Below the pieces are notes generated by a model. The model worked only from the letters and a program-made list of their open reading frames with translations, did no database searches and was not told the origin of the DNA. A stretch of 45,106 nucleotides of DNA. It comes from an uncultured Spartobacteria bacterium (GTDB taxonomy: Bacteria > Verrucomicrobiota > Verrucomicrobiia > Chthoniobacterales > Chthoniobacteraceae). Both the position numbers and the translations under genes were made by a program. This document shows, one piece after another, positions 16,323-38,894 of the stretch. The DNA lies in NCBI GenBank assembly GCA_903916085.1, contig CAIWVL010000328.1, positions 1 through 45,106 of the forward strand. Reading direction: 5' to 3'. The stretch's first letter is position 1. Every line of letters starts with the position of its first letter.

Positions 16323-17036
16323 CTACTCAGCGGCGGGCTCCGGTTTATCCCCGTTCTTCTCGGAAGTCTTATCCGACTTGTCCGTCTTATCTCCGCGGAT
16401 CGGTCCCGGGATTTCTTTCCGGCCCTTCACAACTTCATCCACCAGACCGTACTCTTTGGCCTCCTCTGCGCTCATGTAATAGTCGCGATCCGAATCAAAC
16501 TTCACTTGTTCTTCGGTTTTGCCAGTGTGATCCGCCAAAATCCGGATTAGACGCTTCTTGAGCTTGAACATGAACTCCACAGTACGCTCAACGTCGCTCG
16601 CAGTTCCTTGTGCGCCGCCAGAGACCTGGTGGATCATGATGTCTGAGTTGGGCAAGGCAAAGCGTTTCCCACGCGTTCCTGCGGCAAGCAGAACCGCCCC
16701 CATGCTGGCCGCCATGCCGATGCAGTACGTGTTCACGTCACACGTCATAAACTGCATCGTATCGTAAATTGCCAACCCTGCGGTGACCGAGCCGCCGGGC
16801 GAATTGATGTACAGATGGATGTCTTTCTTGGGGTCTTCCATCTGCAAGAAAAGCAGCTGTGCGATGATAGAATTCGCCACCATGTCATCGACGCCGGTGC
16901 CCAGAAAAACGATCCGGTCCTTTAATAGCCGCGAATAAATGTCGTACGAACGCTCGCCACGACCCGTCTGCTCGACCACATACGGTACGTAGTGGCTGGC
17001 GGAGGGAACTATTCTGCTGTTGCTCGGGGAATACAT
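16323..17036 (-). CDS. clpP: ATP-dependent Clp protease proteolytic subunit
   Basis: Barrel-forming serine protease. The 237-residue product has the catalytic triad Ser111 (GMAASMGA), His136 (MIHQVSG) and Asp185 (SDRDYYMSA). The last about 30 residues (from KGRKEIPG, with [16 protein letters not shown]) form a charged, low-complexity extension beyond the usual end of ClpP. It has its own apparent promoter with an extended -10 (TGC-TATATT), 17-18 bases before the start, so it can be made apart from tig. Confidence 0.96.
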
Positions 17037-17059
17037 AAATGAAGGGATCTCTGACGTTC

Positions 17060-35171: not shown

Positions 35172-35372
35172 TTACCCGCCCGCCACAATCCGAATAATTT
35201 CCAGTCGATCGCCCTCGTTCAGCTCGCACTCAGACCATTCGGTGCGTCTGAGAGCGACGCCGTTATGTTCAACGAGCGTAGCAGGCAAGGGCAGTCCCAG
35301 TTCGGCCACTAGCTCAGCCACCGTTCGAGCCAGCAGACCCTCACGCGTTTCACCGTTAATCAAAAGCTTCAT
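35172..35372 (-). CDS. thiS: Sulfur carrier protein ThiS
   Basis: Ubiquitin-like sulfur carrier for thiazole synthesis. The 66-residue product from the ATG at 35372 starts MKLLINGETRE, has VAELVAEL and VEHNGVALRR, EGDRLEIIRIVAGG, and ends in the diglycine that is adenylated and thiocarboxylated. It overlaps the end of thiH by 4 bases (ATGA). thiG, the partner enzyme, is not next to it. Confidence 0.94.
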   Translation of the reverse strand: MKLLINGETREGLLARTVAELVAELGLPLPATLVEHNGVALRRTEWSECELNEGDRLEIIRIVAGG

Positions 35373-36538
35373 ACAAGAGCAGGTTCTCCCAAAATACCAG
35401 GATCCCAATCCTTCCAAACAGCATCCAGCCCCCGCGCGTGCAAGGCGGCTGCCACTTCAGCGGGAGAACGTTCGTCGGCGATGGCAAACTGCTCGGTTGC
35501 GCCTTGGGCGGCTGCGGCTGGTTCCAAGGCTACTTGGCGCCCACGCACAGTGTGGTGCAGGGCGTCCTTCCCCTGCCCCGTGTAACCGCCTGGCTCGGTG
35601 TGACTACCAGCGCTCATCATTGTCACCCCCAAAGGTGCCAAAGCGTTGCGCAAATGGGCAGGTTCGCGAGTGCTCATCACAATACCGACCTGCGGAAAGC
35701 AAATCCGAAAGGCGCACTGTAACTGGGTAAAATCGCGATCGCCCACAGGGTGGGTGGGCGCAAACTCACCGGCACAAGGGCGCAATCTCGGCAGGCTGAG
35801 GGTAAACTGTCCACGCCAGCAACGCTTTAGCAAGTGCTCAAGGTGCCGCGCAAGCGCCAGCGCTTCCTCCCGCCAAGGGCACAACCCAAAAAGCGCTCCA
35901 ATACCAATCCGCCGGAAGCCAGCGTCGTACCCACGTTCCGGACAAGCGAGCCGCCAGGCGTAATCCCGTTTGGGACCGGCAACGTGTAATTGCGCGTAAT
36001 GCTCAGGATCGTAAGTTTCCTGATAGACAACCAGAGCCTCAGCTCCCGCACGCACCATCAGCCGGTAGTCTTCAGTGTCAAGCGGGGCCACTTCAAGAGC
36101 TACCGAGGGCACTTCTGCGGCCACAGCGGCCACGCATTTTTCGAGGTACCCGTTGGACACAAACTTTGGGTGCTCGCCGGCCACGAGAAGGAGGCTCCGA
36201 AAGCCCTGCGCCTTTAAGTGCCGCGCTTCAGCTACGACCTGAGCCACCTCCAAGGTCACGCGAACGATGGCATTTTCACGCGAGAAACCGCAGTAAGTGC
36301 AGGAGTTTATGCACTCATTCGAGAGGTAAATCGGAGCGAACATCCGCACCGCATTTCCAAAGTGACGCCTGGTGAGAAGAGAAGCGTCGCGAGCCATGCG
36401 CTCCAGAGCGGCGTCGTCGAGGGGCTCTAGGAGAGAGGCAAAGCGCCTGAGCAGGGGAGAGGGCGGGGAGCTGGGATTCCAGAAGGTCATGTGAGGAGCA
36501 ACGGCCAGAGACTGCCTGAGGAACGATAGGATGTCCAC
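35369..36538 (-). CDS. thiH: 2-iminoacetate synthase ThiH (radical SAM)
   Basis: Radical-SAM tyrosine lyase giving dehydroglycine for the thiazole of thiamine. The 389-residue product has the cluster motif CINSCTYC (Cys76, Cys80, Cys83), the upstream YLSNE, LLLVAGEHPKFVS, VYQETYDPEHYAQLHVAGPK and MSAGSHTEPGGY. The start is GTG at 36538. An ATG at 36490 would give 373 residues, close to E. coli ThiH, so the true start is uncertain. It forms a two-gene unit with thiS. I looked for a TPP riboswitch upstream and found none. Confidence 0.93.
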   Translation of the reverse strand: MDILSFLRQSLAVAPHMTFWNPSSPPSPLLRRFASLLEPLDDAALERMARDASLLTRRHFGNAVRMFAPIYLSNECINSCTYCGFSRENAIVRVTLEVAQVVAEARHLKAQGFRSLLLVAGEHPKFVSNGYLEKCVAAVAAEVPSVALEVAPLDTEDYRLMVRAGAEALVVYQETYDPEHYAQLHVAGPKRDYAWRLACPERGYDAGFRRIGIGALFGLCPWREEALALARHLEHLLKRCWRGQFTLSLPRLRPCAGEFAPTHPVGDRDFTQLQCAFRICFPQVGIVMSTREPAHLRNALAPLGVTMMSAGSHTEPGGYTGQGKDALHHTVRGRQVALEPAAAAQGATEQFAIADERSPAEVAAALHARGLDAVWKDWDPGILGEPALV

Positions 36539-36637: not shown

Positions 36638-37075
36638 ATGAACGAGGAACAAATACAGGCCCTGTACATGGAAACCCTTGCGGAAGAGGGCTATCGACCA
36701 AAAATGGATGAAGATGGCGACATTGTCTTTAAGTCGGAAGGGAAGACATTGTACATCCGGATGTACCCAGACGACACGGAGTACCTACAATTGGTCCTGC
36801 CCAACTTTTGGAAAATTGAGTCCGAGGAGGAGCGAGAGTTGGCGAACATTGCGGCCAATTACGCGACGCGGGTGACGAAAGTTGCGAAAGTTTTCACGAC
36901 CAAGGCAAACACGTGCGCAAGCATTGAAATGTTTTTGCCGGTCCCCGAACAGTTCGCGAAGGTGATCAACCGTTGTGTGTGCGCACTGCGCAATGGGGCA
37001 GAGCATTTTGCCGAGAAAATGCAGGAAATGGAGCAGGAAGACGAACCCTCGGAATTTGGCGAATCAGAAGATTAA
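36638..37075 (+). CDS. YbjN-like / type III chaperone-fold protein
   Basis: A small acidic cytoplasmic protein (145 residues). The N-terminus EEQIQALYMETLAEEGYRPKMDEDGDIVFKSEGKTLYIRMYPDDTEYLQLVLP resembles the YbjN/T3SS-chaperone-like fold (helix, then a beta-sheet of paired strands), followed by helix NIAANYATRVTKVAKVF and a C-terminal acidic tail. No catalytic motif is seen. Function is unknown; the family binds partners or acts in regulation. Divergent from thiH; a TGC-TAACAT extended -10-like sequence lies about 30 bases upstream. Confidence 0.65.
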   Translation: MNEEQIQALYMETLAEEGYRPKMDEDGDIVFKSEGKTLYIRMYPDDTEYLQLVLPNFWKIESEEERELANIAANYATRVTKVAKVFTTKANTCASIEMFLPVPEQFAKVINRCVCALRNGAEHFAEKMQEMEQEDEPSEFGESED

Positions 37076-37192: not shown

Positions 37193-38722
37193 ATGAAACC
37201 TCCTCGCATCCAACCCAGTTCCCGACTCAACGGCGTTAAGTATGAAATTCGGGGTCCCCTCGCCCGGAGGGCCAGCGAACTTGAAAAAGCTGGGTACGAA
37301 ATCATTAAGCTGAACATCGGGAACCCCGGTGCGTTCGGGTTCCGCGCCCCTGAAACGATGCGTCTTGCGATGATCGAGAATCTGCGTGAAGCGGATGCCT
37401 ACTGCTATCAAAAGGGCATCTTTCCGGCACGGGAGGCAGTCGTCATGCAACAACAGCTTCGCGGCGTCTCTGACGTCACGGCTGATGATGTCTTCATGGG
37501 CAACGGCGTCTCTGAGCTCATCCTATTTTGCCTCTCTGCTCTCTTGGAAGCTGGCGACGAAGTCCTCATTCCCAGCCCCGACTACCCTCTTTGGACAGCG
37601 GCCACCATTTTGCACTCTGGTAAAGCTGTACACTATCCCTGTCGGCCCGAAAACGGCTTCGTGCCTGATCCAGCGGAAATCCGTAGCCGGATCACAAGTC
37701 GCACGCGGGCGATTGTGGTGATCAATCCCAACAATCCAACCGGGGCTGTTTACCCGCTCGAAACTCTCAAGGAAATCGCGCGGATCGCCGAAGAGCACCG
37801 TTTGGTGGTATTCTCGGATGAAATCTACGATCAGGTGACTTTTGACGCTGCCGAACACGTTCCGTTGGCGACGTTGATCAAAAAAACACTCTGCGCAACC
37901 TTTGGCGGCCTCTCCAAGGTTTACCGTGCGTGCGGGTTCCGTGTGGGATGGGTGAGTTTCTCTGGAGAAAAAGGCGGCGCGCGAGATTATCTTCAGGCGC
38001 TTGAATTGCTGGCAAGTCTCCGACTGTGCTCGAACGTCCCTGGCCAGTGGGCAGTGCAAACCGCGCTTGGCGGCAAGCAGTCCATCACCGAACTGACCCG
38101 CCCAGGAGGTCGTTTGTGGAAAACTCGTCAGGCCATTTTAGATGCCGTTGCGACTTCGCCTTTTCTGAAAGTCGTGGCACCGCAGGGCGCCATGTACGCG
38201 TTCATCGGTGTTAAGACGGAGTTGCTACCGAATTTCGACGATCAAAAATTTGCGCTCGAACTGCTCGAACGCAAACACGTCCTCGTGGCTCCTGGCACCA
38301 GTTTCAATGTCGAGTACAAGGACCATTTCCGTGTCACCTTGCTGCCCGATTGGGAAACCATGCGAGATGTGTTCAACCGCATCAACGATCTGCTCCAAGA
38401 ACACTACAACGAAACTCCCGACACCGTCGAAATCCACGAGGAGCACGGGCATGCAGAACACGCAGCGCACAGCGAGGTGCACGCAGCGCACAGCGAGGTG
38501 CACGCAGATCACGCAGTCCACGCTACAGCCACGGAACTCGCCTTCAGCCTGCCTGACGTACACGAACTTCACGCACACGAGGACGATGCGCTCGCACACA
38601 AGGACGAGGATCTAGAACACAGCGCTCACGAGGCCGCCGCCGAACACCACGACGACCTCAACGGTAAGCACTCAGAAGACGAGATCCCAGCCGGTCTCGA
38701 TCCCATGCACGAGGCTCCTTAA
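37193..38722 (+). CDS. PLP aminotransferase class I (AlaA type) with histidine-rich acidic tail
   Basis: Aminotransferase of fold type I, closest in look to alanine transaminase AlaA. From the ATG at 37193 there are 509 residues. Motifs: YCYQKGIFPAREAVV, FMGNGVSELI, INPNNPTGAVYP, FSDEIYDQ and the PLP lysine in GGLSKVYRACGFRVGW (Lys242). The catalytic part ends about residue 405, the normal AlaA length. Residues 415-509 are an extra tail with about 20 His and many Asp/Glu, including two copies of HAAHSEV. The tail frame is intact. A terminator follows. The tail looks metal-binding, which is inference; substrate is probably alanine/pyruvate, not proven. Confidence 0.85.
   Translation: MKPPRIQPSSRLNGVKYEIRGPLARRASELEKAGYEIIKLNIGNPGAFGFRAPETMRLAMIENLREADAYCYQKGIFPAREAVVMQQQLRGVSDVTADDVFMGNGVSELILFCLSALLEAGDEVLIPSPDYPLWTAATILHSGKAVHYPCRPENGFVPDPAEIRSRITSRTRAIVVINPNNPTGAVYPLETLKEIARIAEEHRLVVFSDEIYDQVTFDAAEHVPLATLIKKTLCATFGGLSKVYRACGFRVGWVSFSGEKGGARDYLQALELLASLRLCSNVPGQWAVQTALGGKQSITELTRPGGRLWKTRQAILDAVATSPFLKVVAPQGAMYAFIGVKTELLPNFDDQKFALELLERKHVLVAPGTSFNVEYKDHFRVTLLPDWETMRDVFNRINDLLQEHYNETPDTVEIHEEHGHAEHAAHSEVHAAHSEVHADHAVHATATELAFSLPDVHELHAHEDDALAHKDEDLEHSAHEAAAEHHDDLNGKHSEDEIPAGLDPMHEAP
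38459..38500 (+). repeat. 21-base tandem repeat in the aminotransferase tail
   Basis: Two identical 21-base units (38459-38479 and 38480-38500), followed by a degenerate third, encode HAAHSEV, HAAHSEV, then HADHAVH. The unit length keeps the frame, so the His-rich tail has grown by in-frame duplication. Confidence 0.85.
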
Positions 38723-38786
38723 AAGCGACTCAGCCACGCCCCAAAGACAGGGCCACTGCAAGTCGCCGGTCTCTTGGGAAATCTGA

Positions 38787-38828
38787 AGAAAGCGGGCGAG
38801 CCCAAAAAGTTCGCTCGCTTTCTTTTTT
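38787..38828 (+). terminator. Intrinsic terminator after the aminotransferase gene
   Basis: GAAAGCGGGCGAGC pairs with GTTCGCTCGCTTTC across a short A-rich loop, and a T-run (CTTTCTTTTTTC) follows. A standard Rho-independent terminator about 65 bases after the stop codon. Confidence 0.85.
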
Positions 38829-38894
38829 CAAAGTCCTCTTGTCCCTCAGGATTTCTCGCCCCCGCCCTTCCCCCCTGTGTTACCTTGACGAAAC

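Follow-up and report, generated by a model that had tools for sequence, protein, structure and literature searches.

A histidine-rich, hypervariable C-terminal extension on an AlaA-type aminotransferase in a genus of Chthoniobacteraceae

Our analysis of an AlaA-type aminotransferase gene supports a reading whereby its long histidine-rich tail is probably a lineage-specific, weakly constrained and disordered C-terminal extension, which grew by in-frame tandem duplication and has no conserved metal function. The gene lies in a 45,106-nucleotide stretch of DNA, analysed here as a whole and referred to as the window, from a species whose genus, within the Chthoniobacteraceae, is represented by metagenome-assembled genomes; judging from their isolate names, most of these come from lakes.

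A complete enzyme core followed by an acidic, histidine-rich tail

The open reading frame begins with an ATG at 37193, runs to 38722 and encodes 509 residues (Table 1). Its core contains a complete fold type I aminotransferase domain (Pfam Aminotran_1_2, PF00155, 8.8e-51). The solved structure nearest to the core by sequence is the glutamate-pyruvate aminotransferase AlaA of E. coli (PDB 4CVQ, 1.9e-127), and the same structure again came first, with 48% identity, in a fold search with the predicted model. K242, R380, D209, Y70 and Y212 of the core are invariant in a 16-member alignment and correspond to Lys240, Arg378, Asp207, Tyr68 and Tyr210, the active residues of E. coli AlaA (PMC4094517). 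The likeness to the E. coli enzyme extends over the whole core fold and all catalytic residues checked, in agreement with the complete PLP enzyme of AlaA type described in the initial annotation. E. coli AlaA, however, stops at 405 residues (PMC4094517), whereas the present enzyme runs 104 residues further, and the histidine-rich tail thus starts at about the end of the E. coli enzyme. The top-scoring model among 66 NCBIfam matches of the protein, the alanine aminotransferase equivalog NF006230 (PRK08363), reached 306.8 bits, which is under its cut-off of 534; "AlaA-type" is therefore a statement of homology, and the substrate assignment relies on E. coli AlaA rather than on the model. The predicted gene product is an ordinary, single-copy AlaA-type alanine aminotransferase.

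Two neighbors of the gene may be mentioned. Just upstream, window positions 36638-37075 hold a 145-residue open reading frame with an acidic end and no Pfam match, and positions 35369-36538 on the reverse strand encode a radical SAM protein with a BATS domain, probably ThiH-like.

Table 1. Features of the aminotransferase gene and its 3' end (window coordinates)
Feature	Position	Strand	Basis or detail
AlaA-type PLP aminotransferase core, residues 1-405	37193..38407	+	Pfam, E. coli AlaA match, catalytic residues
Acidic C-terminal tail rich in His, predicted to be disordered, residues 406-509	38408..38719	+	Composition, pLDDT
Exact 21-bp tandem duplication, HAAHSEV-HAAHSEV	38459..38500	+	Array to 38507, 2.3 copies
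Older, diverged 21-bp duplication, 81% between copies	38572..38613	+	Repeat search
TAA stop codon	38720..38722	+	
Intrinsic-terminator-like hairpin and U run	38780..38830	+	-26.3 kcal/mol, z -6.5

The tail comprises 104 residues with 28 Asp/Glu, 2 Lys, no Cys and a computed pI of 4.8; besides His, it is rich in Ala, Glu and Asp. It contains exactly 20 His, all within residues 415-509 (95 residues), so the acidic, histidine-laden end that had been reported after the enzyme stands in coordinates, frame and composition. It had also been called unusual, and rightly so: against a background of 2.34% His in the sampled genes of the genome (363 kb, taken as stretches), 20 His in 104 residues correspond to a binomial P of about 5e-13, and no other C-terminal 80 residues among the 244 closed ORFs of this sample are as rich in His. 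When the tail was searched against the genome, no further copy was returned, the best other match having an E value of 0.29, and our literature search turned up no relevant publication on an aminotransferase with such a tail. AlphaFold2 predicts no secondary structure over residues 410-509, where pLDDT is below 50 (based on a shallow alignment, with only moderate quality for the model overall, mean 64). His-His pairs at +3 and +7 occur above shuffled expectation (P about 0.007), partly owing to the duplication, while pairs at +1 and +2 occur below it, leaving few HH or HxH motifs; this spacing differs from that of tightly packed poly-His stretches, of which the COG0523 loop discussed below is one. 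A helical periodicity of the histidines was considered and set aside, as the signal at 102.9 degrees fell from P 0.006 to P 0.03 when one repeat copy was removed and AlphaFold2 placed no helix there. Elsewhere in this genome, ribosomal proteins L17 (L142:13361-13801) and L10 (L126:4616-5308) as well as ClpP (window 16326-17057) carry polar C-terminal tails rich in Ala/Glu/His or in Lys/Asp, and the L17 tail differs among congeners in length and sequence.

The tail contains an exact tandem repeat, as had been noticed from its duplicated HAAHSEV units. The two copies span residues 423-429 and 430-436 and are followed by a partial third one; the 21-bp unit is divisible by three and lies in frame throughout the array (38459-38507), and none of 5000 shuffles of the tail codons matched the observed 28-bp self-match. 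Together with the older, diverged duplication and the variation of tails among congeners, this recent duplication supports the suggestion of a self-expanding low-complexity end. Both predicted disorder and in-frame repeats, the marks of a disordered region derived from tandem repeats, are thus found in the tail. The repeat sequence was read from one assembly of the species, and within this assembly the frame and the stop, which had been singled out for checking, are real, as GC content by codon position is 0.84/0.35/0.67, both other forward frames are interrupted by stops, and a hairpin with a U run, found by folding but missed by a simple terminator scan, follows within about 60-110 nt 3' of the stop.

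Variability of the tail within the genus

An AlaA-type enzyme is present in 11 of the 12 genomes of the genus (loci compared: window 37193-38407 and relatives L031-L110), and none was found at this similarity in the genomes searched from eight other Chthoniobacteraceae genera. The closest homologs outside the genus, at 66-73% identity, belong to Myxococcota, Planctomycetota, Gammaproteobacteria and others; these neighbors in other phyla, together with the absence from the eight genera of the family, suggest gene transfer or repeated loss. In the 72 homologs examined from outside the genus, the protein stops 1-26 residues past the core. Within the genus, tails of 67, 45, 40, 23, 21, 15 and 7 residues accompany the 104 residues of the present species, and one further tail measures at least 47 residues, a minimum because the contig ends before a stop is reached. 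Over the seven congeners with complete genes, identity is 0.82-0.92 for the core but 0.00-0.16 for the tail, which is unalignable, and only 0-4 of the 20 tail His are kept. In these close relatives the tail as seen here is largely absent, an outcome that the initial annotation had named as counting against its proposal.

In a tree of the cores, several forks of which are weakly supported, the congener with the 7-residue tail is the earliest branch in the genus, and the longest tails occupy nested positions. A tail of 15 residues sits among long ones, which suggests that shortening has probably occurred as well. DNA alignment of the 3' ends and downstream sequence, which might have revealed an origin of the tail from formerly untranslated sequence, gave no convincing homology past the core end in most pairs. 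Sequence 3' of the enzyme gene is likewise unalignable among most congeners (L031-L037), and local gene order appears rearranged in the genus.

Codon differences between two congeners, G003 and G008, point in the same direction as the protein comparison: the core has 105 silent and 15 replacement differences, compared to 2 silent and 4 replacement differences in the first 16 tail codons (Fisher P 0.005, on a small sample of six tail codon differences). A control for constraint is provided by a COG0523/CobW GTPase with a 19-His loop encoded in the same genome (L152:14055-15221). In the COG0523 family, stretches of His are read as indicating metallochaperone activity (PMC2770081), and this protein is a likely metallochaperone. 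It shares a His-rich segment with the aminotransferase, but its loop is dense in HH/HxH and conserved among congeners, whereas the aminotransferase tail is neither: all five congeners compared retain 17 of the 19 loop His, and loop identity is 0.81-0.93 versus 0.85-0.92 for the rest of the protein.

Metal binding and other readings of the tail

The initial annotation raised the possibility that the tail couples metal sensing or storage to amino-acid metabolism. This proposal fits poorly with histidines that are unconserved among congeners while the His-rich metallochaperone loop is conserved in the same genomes; the conservation among close relatives that would mark a functional metal-binding tail is missing, and no retained metal function is visible in the sequences. 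A narrower version, in which the tail is a young, species-level buffer on an abundant enzyme that stores Ni, Zn or Co with its 20 His and its acidic residues, strikes us as unlikely, yet it has several points in its favor. Twenty His in 95 residues is a high density, the tail of the congener G005 is also significantly enriched in His (7 of 45, P 8e-5), and housekeeping proteins offer precedents in which a complete domain continues into a C-terminal extension rich in His. The His/Cys-rich C-terminal extension of the GroES protein HspA of Helicobacter pylori binds Ni, and its deletion lowers cell nickel (PMC3856676), while the flexible His-rich C-terminus of mycobacterial GroEL1 binds Cu(II) (PMC10170517). 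For HspA, however, both nickel binding and a phenotype are established, whereas the candidate metal-binding tail of the aminotransferase has no Cys and is hypervariable; the GroEL1 motif (DHDHHHGHAH) is compact, whereas His in the present tail are mostly 3-4 or 7 apart within a long acidic segment. Of the 12 genus genomes, 9, the present one included, have a urease alpha match, which implies a likely need for nickel, but the presence of this match has no clear relation to tail length, and G001 has a urease match yet a tail of 15 residues without His; NiFe hydrogenase was not found in the genus genomes. The lack of Cys, the few HH or HxH pairs, the lack of conserved His at 89-92% core identity and the contrasting conservation of the metallochaperone loop all argue against such a buffer.

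Alternatively, the tail might act physically, as an unspecialized acidic and disordered appendage that serves, for instance, solubility, crowding or partner binding, so that its charge would count but its His would not. The congener tails of 40-104 residues are indeed acidic (pI 4.1-4.8), the tails of L17, L10 and ClpP also look polar and disordered, and that of L17 varies among congeners as well. We nevertheless regard this explanation as quite improbable, for the tails of G001, G010, G006 and G007 are not acidic, and tail sequence and length vary freely. Most speculatively, the tail could be a newly evolved nickel or zinc reservoir that arose in one genus by repeat expansion and is selected for its composition, a scenario to which we give little credence; if it were true, the stages of its origin (7, 21, 45 and 104 residues) would be visible in living species. 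That the tail is an artefact of assembly or of a frameshift within the repeat, as a fragmented draft of 379 contigs, the tandem repeat itself and the single assembly of the species might suggest, is very improbable given the open frame with its codon-position GC bias and stops in the alternatives, the terminator 3' of the stop, the shorter congener tails at the same place and a repeat array of 49 bp, short enough for a single read to span.

A probable weakly constrained extension grown by in-frame duplication

We therefore favor the reading of the tail as a weakly constrained, lineage-specific extension. In this genus, the 3' end of the gene would have become a hypervariable, disordered extension that is lengthened and shortened by in-frame duplication and loss, and in the present species it would have grown to 104 residues and gained a high content of His, Ala, Glu and Asp. 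The tail would extend from the final helix of the small domain, an arrangement that the enzyme presumably tolerates undisturbed, and it probably binds divalent metal loosely and passively, as many His-rich peptides do. We infer that selection on the tail is weak. Disordered regions can nonetheless have functions though they cannot be aligned, and the His enrichment in G005 together with the acidity of the longer tails means that composition, rather than sequence, could be selected. A related route to disorder has been described in Borg proteins, in which a repeat unit divisible by three gives an in-frame, disordered amino-acid repeat (PMC9879509). The aminotransferase tail shares this in-frame unit, but Borg repeats form arrays on extrachromosomal elements, whereas here a chromosomal enzyme gene carries about 2.3 units.

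The gene illustrates, on a small scale but clearly, how an enzyme of central metabolism can acquire a disordered tail rich in His, and it warns that His content alone is no proof of metal function. The conserved COG0523 loop and the unconserved aminotransferase tail provide a natural contrast within one genome. Finally, should metal binding by the tail prove useful to the cell, the stepwise birth of a metal store would be on view within the genus.
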